In this document: piece by piece, positions 6,436 through 26,674 of the stretch
How the letters are laid out: the number at the start of each line of letters is the position of its first letter
Position numbering within the stretch: the first letter of the stretch is position 1
Source: an uncultured Desulfuromonadales bacterium
Lineage (GTDB): Bacteria; Desulfobacterota; Desulfuromonadia; Desulfuromonadales; Trichloromonadaceae
NCBI GenBank assembly: GCA_945787285.1
Contig: CALZIC010000008.1
Coordinates: 1 to 42,415, forward strand
Direction of reading: 5' to 3'
DNA: 42,415 bases
The notes under the pieces: generated by a model
The model's input: the letters and a program-made list of their open reading frames with translations, nothing else
What the model was told of the DNA's origin: nothing
The model's database searches: none
Translations under genes and position numbers: made by a program

Positions 6436-6541
6436 AGGAGGCTGTCGGGCTTGGCGGGCCGAAACGAAAAATTGGATGGGCGAGAATTTGGACCGATCCG
6501 TCGATTTTGCAGTCGGCTCTTGTTAAGTCTGACAGCCTCCT
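6436..6541. repeat. Repeat family A, short complete copy (MITE-like, 106 bp)
   Basis: The left end AGGAGGCTGTCGGGCTT (6436-6452) and right end AAGTCTGACAGCCTCCT (6525-6541) are inverted repeats agreeing at 15 of 17 positions. The interior aligns with the first ~50 nt and last ~52 nt of the 164-bp copy at 25615 (41 of 52 by hand count at the right end); ~58 bp of its middle are missing. It is non-coding and sits in the gap between fprA and the symporter gene. Confidence 0.8.
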
Positions 6542-6576
6542 AAAGCCGGCCCGTATCAGATTCATGAACCTGCGGT

Positions 6577-7773
6577 CTATTTGGCCTCGAGCAACGCGGC
6601 AGCCACCTGCTCTCCGAGCTCGCGGCAGGCCTGGATATCCTCGTCGGTCGGGGCAAAACGGTAGTGCAATGGGGCGGCGGCCAGGGTGTACTTGAGCCCC
6701 TTGAGGCGCTCCTCGATCAGGTTGACCGCTTCGCCGCTCCAGCCGTAGGAACCGAACACGGCGCCGAGCCGGCCGCGCGGGGTGACGGTGGAGACCAGCG
6801 ACAGGGTGGCCCATACCGGCGGGGGGGCATCGCGGTTGATGGTAGGGACCCCGACCACCAGGGCGTCGGAACGCTCGATTTCGTCGCGCAGCTCATCCTG
6901 GCAGGCAACGGCGATGGCCTTCTCCACCACCTCGATGCCGCGGGCTTCGAGCCCTTCGCGAACGGCGGCGGCCATTTTGCGGGTGTTGCCGTGAGGGGAG
7001 AGGGTCAGCAGCAGGGCCCGCTTGCAGCCGGTATCCTCCACCGGAGCGGCCAGCTCCTTGTAGCGGGCGATGGCGGCCTTGGGATCGCGCCGCAGCAGCG
7101 GACCGTGGGAGGGACAGAGCAGCTCGATTTCAAGCCCTTCGACCTTGGCTACCGCCTCGCGGATCTTGTCCTTGAAGGGGCGCATGATGGCGTCGAAATA
7201 GTGCTCGAACTCGGCGCTAAAGTCGGCAACCTCGTCGTCAAACAGGCCGTCGCCGCAGAAATGGGCCCCGAAAGCATCGCAGGGAAAGAGGATCTTCGCC
7301 TCGGGCAGGTAGGTGAAGATGGTATCGGGCCAGTGCAGGTAGGGGGCAAGGATGAAGCGCAGGGTCTTGCCGCCAAGGTCGATCTCCTCCCCTTCGGCCA
7401 CCACCCGGGTCTTCATCGGCACGCTGTAAAGCTGCTGAAGAAAGTTGGCGGCCGACCGGCTGCAGCAGACGGTGATCTCCGGGTTGGCCTCGAGAAGCTT
7501 GCCGAGGGCACCGGAATGGTCGGGTTCGGTATGGTTGACCACCACCAGGTCGATCTGCTCCAGGGGCACCAGCGAGCTCAGACGCTCGAGATACTGTTCG
7601 GTGAACATGCCCTTGACCGTATCGATCAGCGCCACCTTCTCGCTGCCGCGCACCAGGTAGGCGTTATAGGTCGTGCCGTTGTGGGTGGGAAAGAGTTCGT
7701 CGAATATTCTCAGCTCGGGATGCCGGGCTCCCAACGAGTAGATTCCGGGGCCTATTTCTGCAATGCCGGACAT
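6577..7773 (-). CDS. fprA: FprA-family flavo-diiron protein (O2/NO reductase)
   Basis: A 398-residue A-type flavoprotein. The N-terminal metallo-beta-lactamase-like domain (1-~245) keeps the diiron ligands in the expected spacing: H81-x-E83-x-D85-H86, H147, D166 and H223. The C-terminal flavodoxin domain (~252-398) has an FMN phosphate loop TLSPHGNTRKMA. Proteins of this type reduce O2 to water or NO to N2O in anaerobes, taking electrons from rubredoxin or a similar carrier, and so protect cytoplasmic enzymes from oxygen. No rubredoxin gene is adjacent. The start has a GAAAGG ribosome binding site on the minus strand. It is divergent from the metallophosphoesterase at 7910. Confidence 0.93.
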   Translation of the reverse strand: MSGIAEIGPGIYSLGARHPELRIFDELFPTHNGTTYNAYLVRGSEKVALIDTVKGMFTEQYLERLSSLVPLEQIDLVVVNHTEPDHSGALGKLLEANPEITVCCSRSAANFLQQLYSVPMKTRVVAEGEEIDLGGKTLRFILAPYLHWPDTIFTYLPEAKILFPCDAFGAHFCGDGLFDDEVADFSAEFEHYFDAIMRPFKDKIREAVAKVEGLEIELLCPSHGPLLRRDPKAAIARYKELAAPVEDTGCKRALLLTLSPHGNTRKMAAAVREGLEARGIEVVEKAIAVACQDELRDEIERSDALVVGVPTINRDAPPPVWATLSLVSTVTPRGRLGAVFGSYGWSGEAVNLIEERLKGLKYTLAAAPLHYRFAPTDEDIQACRELGEQVAAALLEAK

Positions 7774-22357: not shown

Positions 22358-22605
22358 ACCCAAATCCGCGGGACCGGGGTGAATAAAGAGTGTAAGTGCT
22401 TGGCCTGAATAAGGGCTTCAAAAAATACTGAGGCGCACCCAGCGGTTCGTCGGTGATTTTTTGATTCCTTAGGCATGTCAATGGCTTGCGCTATTTGTCG
22501 GCAAGACCCCGTGGATTTGAGTCAAACCGTATTTACAACGATGGCGCAAACCTTTATCATTGATCGGATAAGATCAGATCCCCTCGCCAGGAGAACAGCA
22601 CCTTC
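22358..22605 (+). other. Intergenic region upstream of the HEAT/HD-GYP operon
   Basis: A 248-bp gap with no hairpin terminator after the isochorismatase-type gene. It contains one good promoter near its right end (22532-22560) and an AGGAG site at about 22589. I see no small gene. Confidence 0.45.
22532..22560 (+). promoter_or_regulatory. Predicted sigma-70 promoter of the HEAT/HD-GYP operon
   Basis: TTTACA (22532-22537), 17-bp spacer, TATCAT (22555-22560); 5 of 6 matches in each box. It would give a leader of about 40 nt. Confidence 0.6.
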
Positions 22606-24186
22606 ATGCCGAACAGCGGCCAGACAACCGAACATATCGAAACGGCGCTGCGCAGCCTCGATATGCTCATCAAGGCAACCCGCTTTTACCCGCCCGGGCA
22701 CCCGGCCCACCAGAAGGCGGTCGAGCAGGCCCTGGCGCGGTTTGCGCCGCTGTTGCTCGGAGGGGCCCCGCTGGTGCTCACCGTGCGCAAAGGGGGCTTC
22801 GCCCTGGGGGATGAAGCGATCCTGCAGCAGAACCCTGTCCTGCAGAGCTTCGCCACCCAGCTTTTCGCCCGCCATGTACGCTCGCTGCTGATGCTCCCCG
22901 ACCTCACCGGCAGGGACCTGCGAACCTTCGCCGCCTGCCTGGCCCTGGAACCCCATGAAATCAGCGCCAAGGGGGGCATCGACCTGCTGTTGAAGGAAAA
23001 CCGGGTCGCAACGGTATGGGCCAACCAGATCGACCTCGAGACCATCCTTGCGCAAAAAGAAGAGATCGAGGAGCAGCAGGCACTCGAAGAGCAGGAACCG
23101 CTGATTTCCCCGGATCAGGCCGAGCCCCTCCCCGATGAGTCCACCCCGGCCGCCCGCAGGAGTCTAGCCGACATCCTGCAGATTCTGGAACAGAGCGTCT
23201 CCGACCAGCAGTTTCGTTCCCTGCTCAACGAGCTCGTGCCCGCCATCGAACAAAACATGACGGAAGAAAACCGGTCGCTGGTCGTGCGGGCCCTCTTTAT
23301 TCTCGGCCGTTATGCCGTCGACCGCAACGCCTCGATGACCCGCCAGCAGGGCAGCCAGCAGACCCTTGGCCAGCTGAACTCCGGTGCGCTCCTCGAATTT
23401 CTGGTCGACTCCGTTCGCAGCAAAACCCTGCCCGATGCACCACGACAGCAGCTGAACGCCATTCTGCCCATCTTTGCCGGCAAAGTCGCCAAGCCCCTTA
23501 TGCTAGGCCTGGGCAGCGAAAGCGACGCCCAGGGGCGCAAGTTTTTAGCTACCGCCCTCATCCGCCTGGGAAAGGCCTCCCTGCCGACGCTGATCGAACA
23601 CCTTGGAGACGAGCGCTGGTATGTCGTTCGAAATGCAGCCAACATCCTTGGCGAGATCCGCCATGAACAGGCCGTCGGGCACATGACCCCCCTGCTGCAC
23701 CACGACGAGGTCCGGGTCCGCCGGGAAGCCGTCCGCGCCCTGACCAAAATCGGGGGGAACAAGGCCGAAGGCATCCTGCTCTCGCTCGTAGAACAGAACG
23801 ATCAGGAAATGTCCCGTCAGGCGATACTCTCGCTCGGCGCACTGAAAAGCTCCCGCGCCATACCGGCGCTGATCGAGCTGATCAACCGCCGCGACCTCAA
23901 GGGGCACCTGGTTGACCTGAAAAAAGAGGCCATCAAGGCTCTGGGCGCAATCGGCTCCACCGAGGCGGTCCCCAAACTTCTGCACATTCTCAAGAAACGA
24001 CGCTTCTGGCTGCGTGCACGCCAGGACGAGCTCAGGGCATCGGCCGCCCTGGCACTCGGCAATATCGGCGACCCGACCACCCTCTCGCCCCTTCAATCGG
24101 TGGCGGAACACGCCCCGGACCTGGTCGCCAGGGCAGCCCGCCAAGCCCTTAACAGACTTGAAAAAACGGTTCGCCATGCAACTTGA
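22606..24186 (+). CDS. HEAT-repeat protein with N-terminal YPxxHP domain
   Basis: A 526-residue soluble protein. Residues ~20-112 form a domain with K23-x-x-R26-x-Y28-P29-x-x-H32-P33-A34 and D104-L-R-T-F108. This domain recurs at the start of the next protein and I cannot name it. Residues ~125-305 are helical and partly acidic (EEIEEQQALEEQ). From ~310 to 520 there are PBS-lyase-type HEAT repeats, e.g. LGDERWYVVRNAANILGEI and HDEVRVRREAVRALTKIG, which usually form a protein-binding solenoid. No catalytic motif is seen. It overlaps the HD-GYP gene by 11 nt, so the two are translationally coupled. An adaptor or scaffold role for its partner is inference. Confidence 0.85.
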   Translation: MPNSGQTTEHIETALRSLDMLIKATRFYPPGHPAHQKAVEQALARFAPLLLGGAPLVLTVRKGGFALGDEAILQQNPVLQSFATQLFARHVRSLLMLPDLTGRDLRTFAACLALEPHEISAKGGIDLLLKENRVATVWANQIDLETILAQKEEIEEQQALEEQEPLISPDQAEPLPDESTPAARRSLADILQILEQSVSDQQFRSLLNELVPAIEQNMTEENRSLVVRALFILGRYAVDRNASMTRQQGSQQTLGQLNSGALLEFLVDSVRSKTLPDAPRQQLNAILPIFAGKVAKPLMLGLGSESDAQGRKFLATALIRLGKASLPTLIEHLGDERWYVVRNAANILGEIRHEQAVGHMTPLLHHDEVRVRREAVRALTKIGGNKAEGILLSLVEQNDQEMSRQAILSLGALKSSRAIPALIELINRRDLKGHLVDLKKEAIKALGAIGSTEAVPKLLHILKKRRFWLRARQDELRASAALALGNIGDPTTLSPLQSVAEHAPDLVARAARQALNRLEKTVRHAT

Positions 24187-25510
24187 TCATGTAAAAAAAG
24201 TCCTTCTCGGATTCTCCGGCGCCTACAAAAGCCTGCGCCTCTACCCGGTGGAACACCCGGCCATCGAACGGCAGGTGCAGAACCTGGTCAACGACTTCCG
24301 CCCGCTGTTTACCCAGAAGCCCGCGGTGAAGGTCGGGGTCCTCGAAGGAACCCTCTTTTGCGACAACCACCTCTTTGTCACCGACGAACCGCATGTGACG
24401 GAACTGCGCAACCTGTTGCAGCGCTCCGGGCTCGAGGGGATCGAGTTCAGCAATGGGGTCGGCCTTGCCGAACTGCGCACCTTTCTCGGCATCTTCCACC
24501 AGGGACGCCTGGCGGGCAAAGCGCTGCAGCCGGCCCTTCAGAAACAGGGCGTTCGCCACATACGGGTTATCCCGCTACCCGATGAAGAGGACGAGGAGGC
24601 CGAAAAGCCCCATGCCATCTACCGCCGGGCTCTCAAGGTGGTCAGCCAGATCTTCAAAGACGTCCGGCTCGGCAAGATCCCCGAGACCAAAGAGGCGCTC
24701 GAGGTGGTGCAGAGCATGGCCAAAACGACCCTATCCGACCCCCACGCCCTGGTGGCCCTGTCCCTGCTGAAGGATTACGACAACTACACTTTTACCCATT
24801 CGGTCAACGTTTCGGTCATCTCCCTTGCGGTGGGACGGGCCTGCGGGCTGCCCGAAGAGAAGCTGCAGATGCTCGGACTCGGCGGCCTGCTTCACGATCT
24901 CGGCAAGCTGATCATTGACCGCGAGATCATCAACAAGCCGGGCCGTTTGACCGCCGAGGAGTTTGAAACAATCAAGCAGCACCCCACCTCCGGCGCCGAC
25001 ATCGCAAAGAAAATGGAAGGGGTGCCCGACGAGGTGATCGACATCATCCTCGCCCACCATTTGCGCTACGACCGCCAGGGCTACCCGGCCGACGCCCGCG
25101 GCAGAAGGGTTTCCATCCTGGCCGACATGGCCGCCATCGCCGACACCTACGACGCCATGACCACGTTGCGCTCCTACCAGCAGCCCATGACCCCGAAAGC
25201 AGCCATCCAAAGGCTGCGGGAACTGGCCGGGACGGCGCTGCATCCGAAGCTCCTGGAGCACCTGATCGACTTCCTCGGCGAATACCCCGTCGGCAGCCTG
25301 GTGCGTCTCGACAGCAACGAGATCGCCCTGGTCACCAAAGTCGGCATCGACAATCCGGAAAATATCGAGGTTAAGATCCTCTTCGACTCGGGCGGGACCC
25401 GCATGAACGAACCGCTCGACATCCAGCTCTCCGCAGAAGAAGCCGGAAGGATCGTCGCCGAAGTCGATCCCTTTATCAAGGGGATCAACCCGACCGATTA
25501 TTTCAAATAG
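24176..25510 (+). CDS. HD-GYP domain c-di-GMP phosphodiesterase candidate with YPxxHP domain
   Basis: A 444-residue protein. Residues ~14-107 repeat the N-terminal domain of the upstream HEAT protein (K18-x-x-R21-x-Y23-P24-x-x-H27-P28-A29; E99-L-R-T-F103). After an acidic linker the HD-GYP domain (~170-375) has H208, H240-D241, K244, H269, H294-H295, G302-Y-P304 and D324, all the residues expected for metal binding. The usual HHExxDGxGYP reads HHLRYDRQGYP. Active enzymes of this family hydrolyse cyclic di-GMP. A C-terminal part (~375-444) resembles the beta-rich tail seen on many HD-GYP proteins. I took ATG 24176 as start because the shared domain begins at once; the gene overlaps its neighbour by 11 nt. 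A strong terminator follows. Confidence 0.88.
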   Translation: MQLDHVKKVLLGFSGAYKSLRLYPVEHPAIERQVQNLVNDFRPLFTQKPAVKVGVLEGTLFCDNHLFVTDEPHVTELRNLLQRSGLEGIEFSNGVGLAELRTFLGIFHQGRLAGKALQPALQKQGVRHIRVIPLPDEEDEEAEKPHAIYRRALKVVSQIFKDVRLGKIPETKEALEVVQSMAKTTLSDPHALVALSLLKDYDNYTFTHSVNVSVISLAVGRACGLPEEKLQMLGLGGLLHDLGKLIIDREIINKPGRLTAEEFETIKQHPTSGADIAKKMEGVPDEVIDIILAHHLRYDRQGYPADARGRRVSILADMAAIADTYDAMTTLRSYQQPMTPKAAIQRLRELAGTALHPKLLEHLIDFLGEYPVGSLVRLDSNEIALVTKVGIDNPENIEVKILFDSGGTRMNEPLDIQLSAEEAGRIVAEVDPFIKGINPTDYFK

Positions 25511-25560: not shown

Positions 25561-25596
25561 GAAAAACGCCGGACTCACAGAGTCCGGCGTTTTTTT
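25561..25596 (+). terminator. Rho-independent terminator of the HEAT/HD-GYP operon
   Basis: ACGCCGGACT (25566-25575), loop CACAG, AGTCCGGCGT (25581-25590), then six T residues; the stem is perfect. A preceding A run makes it potentially bidirectional. Confidence 0.92.
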
Positions 25597-25952: not shown

Positions 25953-26519
25953 TCAGGTTTCGAGGCCGCCCAGGGCCCGTGCCGCCTCCAGGCGCACTTG
26001 CGCATCCGGGTGATCGAGGAGCGGGGCGATGACCCCTTCGGCCTCACCCGCTCCGATCCTGGCCAGGGAGCGCACCGCGGCTTTTACCAATTCGGTATCG
26101 GCAGCGGTCACCAGCACACCGAGATAAGGAACCAGCCGGGGGTCGCGAAATTCACCGAGAGCCTCGGCGGCGTGCACCCTGACCGCAGGGTGGCTGTCCT
26201 TGAGACACTGGGCCAGGTTCCCGATGACCTTCGGGTTCTTCTTGCGGCCGAGCACCTGGATCGCCGCCGAGCGCAGATCTTCGTCGCCAACCTTCAACGC
26301 CGCCAGCAGGGGGGCAAAGACCTTTTGCGATTGAATGCGTTCCAGGGCGAACAGCGCCTTGACTTTCTCCCCCCGACCGCCGCTCTTCAGAGAGGCCAGA
26401 ATCGCGGGGAGCTCCATGGCCGACTCGAGAGTCTCCAGCGACGCGGCCGCCGCCTGTCGCACCCCTGGATCGGCATCCTTCAGGCAGTGACGCAGTAACT
26501 GTTTACGTTTTTCAAGCAT
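25953..26519 (-). CDS. Small HEAT-repeat (PBS-lyase type) protein
   Basis: A 188-residue protein built almost entirely of five to six HEAT repeats, e.g. LKDADPGVRQAAAASLETL, LKDSHPAVRVHAAEALGEF and LDHPDAQVRLEAARALGGL. It lacks the N-terminal domain and catalytic motifs, so a protein-interaction role is likely. I prefer ATG 26519, where the first repeat begins; the frame is open to ATG 26570 and neither has a clear ribosome binding site. It is convergent with the HD-GYP operon, which encodes another HEAT protein; whether they interact is unknown. Confidence 0.8.
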   Translation of the reverse strand: MLEKRKQLLRHCLKDADPGVRQAAAASLETLESAMELPAILASLKSGGRGEKVKALFALERIQSQKVFAPLLAALKVGDEDLRSAAIQVLGRKKNPKVIGNLAQCLKDSHPAVRVHAAEALGEFRDPRLVPYLGVLVTAADTELVKAAVRSLARIGAGEAEGVIAPLLDHPDAQVRLEAARALGGLET

Positions 26520-26674
26520 CGTATCGATACACCATCCATGAATGGGCCTTAAAACCGGCAACTGTCCCATAATCAGGCCAGGCCCCCCTTACCGGGAGAC
26601 TACATATACTAGCCCGAAAAAGAATATGCGCCAAGAGGGTTTTATACCATCTGCCGGAAAAGAAGGGCCAAACG

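Follow-up and report, generated by a model that had tools for sequence, protein, structure and literature searches.

The GGDEF, HD-GYP and PilZ domains are the classical machinery of c-di-GMP synthesis, breakdown and reception. Structural relatives of the phosphodiesterase described here are PmGH, V-cGAP3, PA4781 and Bd1817, the last a Bdellovibrio HD-GYP protein (PDB 3tm8, 3tmb and 3tmd). With the HD-GYP phosphodiesterases as a family it has in common the HD-GYP core, seven of the eight ligand positions and the GYP motif. What sets it apart from known HD-GYP proteins is an N-terminal domain without a Pfam or NCBIfam model and an obligate-looking HEAT gene partner that carries the same domain. 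REC, PAS, GAF and DUF3391 domains occupy the same place N-terminal to HD-GYP, but none of them shows a sequence match over this domain. The partner has the C-terminal helical-repeat solenoid of the HEAT and PBS-HEAT repeat proteins (HEAT_2; phycobilin-lyase-like proteins and alphaRep solenoids), from which it differs in adding an N-terminal alpha/beta domain common to a phosphodiesterase and in scoring far under the phycobilin-lyase cut-offs. Geobacter relatives use c-di-GMP and cGAMP to control their metal respiration and their biofilms (PMC6456294, PMC12285248).

The HEAT and HD-GYP gene pair

We analysed a window of 42,415 nucleotides (the whole of the stretch taken from contig CALZIC010000008.1, assembly GCA_945787285.1, an uncultured Desulfuromonadales bacterium), in which the pair and its surroundings comprise the following features.

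22532..22560, + strand: promoter-like site upstream of the pair, TTTACA-17-TATCAT (consensus scan, 10/12 matches)
22606..24186, + strand: HEAT-repeat protein with unnamed N-terminal domain, 526 aa (ORF; Pfam HEAT_2 1.8e-31; AF2 pLDDT 93.5)
22630..23031, + strand: N-terminal domain copy 1, HEAT protein residues 9-142 (profile-profile match E 1.1e-19; cross-match 8.7e-12; AF2)
23164..24180, + strand: HEAT solenoid, residues 187-525 (Pfam; fold matches to alphaRep, armadillo and karyopherin solenoids)
24176..24186, + strand: 11-nt overlap of the HEAT and HD-GYP genes (ORF coordinates; 62/73 related pairs likewise overlap)
24176..25510, + strand: HD-GYP protein with unnamed N-terminal domain, 444 aa (ORF; Pfam HD_5 1.5e-26; AF2 pLDDT 89.6)
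24182..24586, + strand: N-terminal domain copy 2, HD-GYP protein residues 3-137 (profile-profile match; cross-match E 7.1e-8; AF2)
24764..25279, + strand: HD-GYP catalytic core, residues 197-368 (alignment to PmGH, residue roles from PMC4159591)
25298..25465, + strand: C-terminal beta-rich extension, residues 375-430 (AF2 secondary structure; conserved in alignment)
25561..25595, + strand: intrinsic terminator hairpin downstream of the HD-GYP gene (scan; RNA folding energy -25.7 kcal/mol, z -7.6)
25953..26570, - strand: small convergent HEAT-repeat gene, 205 aa, without the N-terminal domain (Pfam HEAT_2 1.5e-27)

The initial annotation had described two genes overlapping by 11 nt behind one good promoter and before one terminator. 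The overlap follows directly from the ORF coordinates, with the HD-GYP frame starting at the ATG at 24176, and suggests translational coupling. The terminator is a strong hairpin whose sequence is symmetric, so that it possibly serves both strands. A moderate promoter-like site does exist, but two sites of this kind were found where 0.9 would be expected in the region, which makes the evidence weak. The small convergent HEAT gene is a conserved neighbour: of 69 related pairs, 52 have such a gene no more than 1 kb downstream. It may belong to the module as a third component with transcription of its own.

HEAT_2 matches the first protein with 108.7 bits (cut-off 27.7) in three stretches, and the solenoid is also present in its model; the second protein has its HD_5 match above cut-off and profile matches to 5z7c, 4mcw and 4r8z. 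A search of both proteins for membrane helices, using hydropathy and the models, found no long hydrophobic segment outside modelled helices: the maximum 19-residue mean is 1.68 in the HEAT protein, at residue 42 inside modelled helix 2 of its domain, and 1.05 in the HD-GYP protein. As neither has a segment of the membrane-helix type, we treat the two proteins as cytosolic.

The shared N-terminal domain

That the two proteins begin with the same domain had been proposed from a constant offset of five residues, and this is what we found. Their N-termini form one ungapped alignment of 100 residues at that offset with a score of 70, which none of 1000 shuffles reached (mean 28.3, sd 4.8), and blastp between them gives an E value of 7e-5. 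Equivalent residues (HEAT/HD-GYP) are K23/K18, R26/R21, Y28P29/Y23P24 and H32P33A34/H27P28A29, followed by F46/F41, P48/P43 and L49/L44, the three further matches claimed at the outset, and by LRTF at 105-108/100-103. Profiles built separately from 36 HEAT and 36 HD-GYP N-termini align in hhalign with a probability of 99.2 (E 1.1e-19, 127 columns), and each recovers the opposite copy in the window's own genome (copy 1 by the copy-2 profile, E 8.7e-12; copy 2 by the copy-1 profile, E 7.1e-8). Both N-termini are thus one profile family, an alpha/beta domain of about 135 residues, and profile searches and structure prediction alike give no split of the two into different folds; the shuffles, profile alignment, cross-matches and AF2 models rule out chance or convergence. 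Two details change. The limits first given (about 20-112 and 14-107) lie in the right region, but the domain is longer, about 9-142 and 3-137; and the LRTF that both N-termini reach is present in these two proteins but is not conserved literally in relatives, where the conserved position reads D/E-L-x-x-F. The signature of the domain is YPxxHP, located between helices 1 and 2.

The AF2 models of the two proteins were made from different alignments. In copy 1 the elements run alpha-alpha-beta-beta-beta-alpha-beta-alpha-alpha-beta, and both models show two helices, three strands, a helix, a strand, two to three short helices and a strand, after which a long helix spans residues 144/145-163/164. 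The element order is equal at an offset of +5 and, judged by predicted secondary structure only, the copies appear to share a fold.

Pfam and NCBIfam searches returned no above-cut-off match over the domain in either protein and sporadic weak matches only over 72 of its members, so that with no counterpart in these collections we rejected the idea of a known domain under another name. DUF3391 reaches the HD-GYP protein below cut-off (E 0.011), on the linker helix only (residues 135-174). Searching PDB sequences with the domain profiles gave chance matches, besides one to the artificial protein Octarellin V.1 (E 1.6e-8, 57 columns) that we judged a composition or repeat artefact. In fold searches with the full-length models, matches were taken up by the HD-GYP and HEAT parts. 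The structural alignment to Bd1817 covers 222-251 residues (Z 21-25) between about residue 52 and residue 368 of the model, and so could extend over the beta half of the HD-GYP protein's N-terminal domain; the domain profiles have no sequence match to Bd1817.

Conservation of the pair and spread of the domain

We collected 80 HD-GYP relatives from genome contigs whose labels are, with few exceptions, Desulfuromonadales, Geobacteraceae or Deltaproteobacteria. A HEAT gene lies directly upstream in 73 of these, with intergenic gaps from -23 to +29 nt and an overlap in 62 pairs (start codons chosen by rule). The domain is present in 56 of the 58 genomes from the order to which the window belongs, and at least 51 of the 58 have a tandem pair; in a sample of the phylum the domain occurs in 65 of 148 genomes, with 45 tandem pairs in 39 genomes among the matches listed. 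All 40 of the 45 that we examined have the domain with HEAT first and the domain with HD-GYP second; one HEAT gene of a tandem pair (L127) is interrupted after the domain. The pairing is therefore conserved in related genomes, and its recurrence in relatives, order and phylum rules out a local accident; the constant HEAT-then-HD-GYP order of overlapping or abutting genes agrees with the dedicated two-protein module first suggested.

Pairs come in two sizes, the short type of the window and a long type with a HEAT protein of about 740 aa and an HD-GYP protein of about 400 aa. Each type occurs once in the window's own genome, the long pair at L092 (G000 contig C145, 4328-7675), where the HD-GYP gene is split over two frames (6541-7035 and 6983-7675) by a sequencing error or because it is broken.

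Six HD-GYP relatives lack a HEAT neighbour, four of them from genomes that also have a pair, and some HEAT proteins with the domain (L163-L167) have no HD-GYP neighbour. As unpaired members of both kinds exist, each can work apart. At L039 and L045 an unpaired HD-GYP paralogue with the domain stands directly behind a sigma-54-dependent response regulator gene, and at L039 an NtrY-like histidine kinase also precedes it.

In a quick tree of 140 domain copies, which has many weak forks, the HD-GYP, HEAT and other copies fall largely apart, with 8 label changes compared to 56.8 when shuffled. This indicates, as far as such a sequence tree can, that the duplication of the domain is older than the diversification of the phylum and that inheritance has since been mostly vertical. 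This tree does not favour recent duplication or gene conversion between neighbours, because throughout the phylum HD-GYP copies group with one another and HEAT copies likewise. A search of plasmids for the domain found nothing significant. One contig labelled Chloroflexi (L041) has both domain copies inside Desulfuromonadales clades and is probably mislabelled or from a mixed bin.

The initial annotation had assigned the domain to the pair; it is on both partners but is not private to them, occurring also with GGDEF, PilZ and histidine-kinase domains. Five long proteins of the phylum (1213-1456 aa) have the layout GGDEF-AAA_16-domain-(domain)-HEAT: GGDEF, with its motif written AGDEF, and AAA_16 are Pfam-confirmed in two of the five examined (L175:2782-7053 and L177:2791-6429), and the other three (L171, L172 and L181) resemble these in length, domain and HEAT layout, with a GGDEF-like N-terminus in L171. 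The domain stands twice in tandem within one chain in four of the five. Proteins with the order domain-HEAT-cNMP_binding-PilZ (L176:4660-9729 and L180:4633-7491) are possible receptors for two messengers. Another member of the phylum has a domain-HisKA-HATPase kinase with a response regulator next after it, and the domain is also found beside a Ser/Thr kinase. Its company of GGDEF, HD-GYP and PilZ points to cyclic-dinucleotide signalling, of which, judged by these architectures, the domain is a general module in the phylum. A live network of this kind is to be expected in the window's own genome, given about 34 GGDEF matches above cut-off and five RNAs of the c-di-GMP-I riboswitch class (G000 contigs C5, C49, C66, C128 and C160).

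Catalytic residues and proposed mechanism

The HD-GYP protein keeps seven of the eight metal-ligand positions of PmGH (H208, H240, D241, H269, H294, H295 and D323), the GYP motif (G302Y303P304), the catalytic Asp202/Lys244 and Arg332. The eighth position, Glu185 of PmGH, is Tyr204, which places the protein in the Y/F subfamily, and the recognition position Lys317 is Gln335, mostly Gln in relatives too, so that from sequence either c-di-GMP or 3',3'-cGAMP may be the substrate. These two replacements, and the fact that Bd1817, a top structural match, is inactive (PMC3774798), are what speaks for a degenerate, non-hydrolysing receptor or adaptor domain like Bd1817, in which case the module would leave messenger levels unchanged. 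We consider this very unlikely. The Y/F subfamily with seven ligands is a normal half of the HD-GYP family and is predicted to be binuclear (PMC4159591), and Bd1817 differs in having non-consensus ligands (PMC3774798). Moreover, 60 close and 46 distant relatives all have the seven ligands, the HDxGK lysine, the structural Asp and GYP unchanged, and only two of these 106 lack the catalytic Asp, a pattern that argues for selection on catalysis. By alignment, every catalytic residue tested is intact, and the enzyme looks active as a phosphodiesterase.

The best explanation of the locus is a two-gene cytosolic module of cyclic-dinucleotide signalling. In this module one copy of a duplicated domain stands at the head of the HEAT solenoid and the other at the head of the HD-GYP phosphodiesterase, and the two copies would bind each other. 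The HEAT arm, positioned beside the enzyme, would then grip a target protein or receive a signal, and so localise or gate the predicted hydrolysis of c-di-GMP (or 3',3'-cGAMP). On GGDEF-HEAT proteins, PilZ-HEAT proteins and histidine kinases, the same domain may supply matching pairing or sensing modules for synthesis, reception and phosphorelay. We give about even chances to the central step, that the domain works in pairs and brings the target-binding HEAT arm beside the phosphodiesterase; the reasons are that the gene order is strict and the gaps are short, that both proteins have paralogous caps and that GGDEF-HEAT proteins carry such caps in tandem. Covariation between the two domains was computed from 113 paired sequences (about 91 effective), in which the within-domain signal is itself weak: the top inter-protein score is 5.3, random pairing reaches up to 5.5, and an excess of strong covarying pairs can stem from shared phylogeny.

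The layout of a domain that lies N-terminal to varied outputs (HD-GYP, HEAT and HisKA) and behind a GGDEF-ATPase is the usual one of a sensor module, and there are unpaired members, of which those at L039 and L045 immediately follow two-component regulator genes. The domain could accordingly sense a ligand or a state, having been duplicated onto two outputs that read one cue in parallel, are co-transcribed for dosage and form no stable complex. A pure sensor, however, needs neither the strict HEAT-then-HD-GYP adjacency of the 40 tandem pairs examined nor tandem copies in one chain, and we regard this reading as rather unlikely. Less probable still is a domain that homodimerises in each protein separately, with the pair kept by shared regulation or pathway only: HD-GYP and GGDEF enzymes are often dimeric, and the copies diverged long ago into largely separate clades, yet homodimerisation by itself gives no account of the same domain in the partner or of the lasting adjacency. 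The preferred reading, pairing between the two proteins, extends to a bolder one that we put forward tentatively and rate somewhat below even: that the domain docks HEAT scaffolds onto HD-GYP in trans and GGDEF in cis by one interaction code across the phylum.

HD-GYP and HEAT proteins are known kinds; the N-terminal domain, the two-protein arrangement and the spread of the domain over messenger enzymes appear, on sequence comparison, to be undescribed in Pfam, NCBIfam and the literature searched. Titles and abstracts gave no relevant link of HEAT repeats with HD-GYP, GGDEF or Geobacter; Wright 2020, which is said to deal with divergent HD-GYPs and cGAMP, stood outside that search. It has long been asked by what means a cell with many cyclases and phosphodiesterases prevents crosstalk between their signals. 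The domain occurs in proteins for breakdown (HD-GYP), synthesis (GGDEF) and reception (PilZ) as well as phosphorelay, and it is accompanied by a protein-binding HEAT arm. If the bolder reading were true, HEAT solenoids would be the platform on which synthesis, breakdown and reception come together, all by one interaction code. The domain offers a concrete candidate for local signalling on scaffolds in a group of bacteria to which Geobacter relatives belong.
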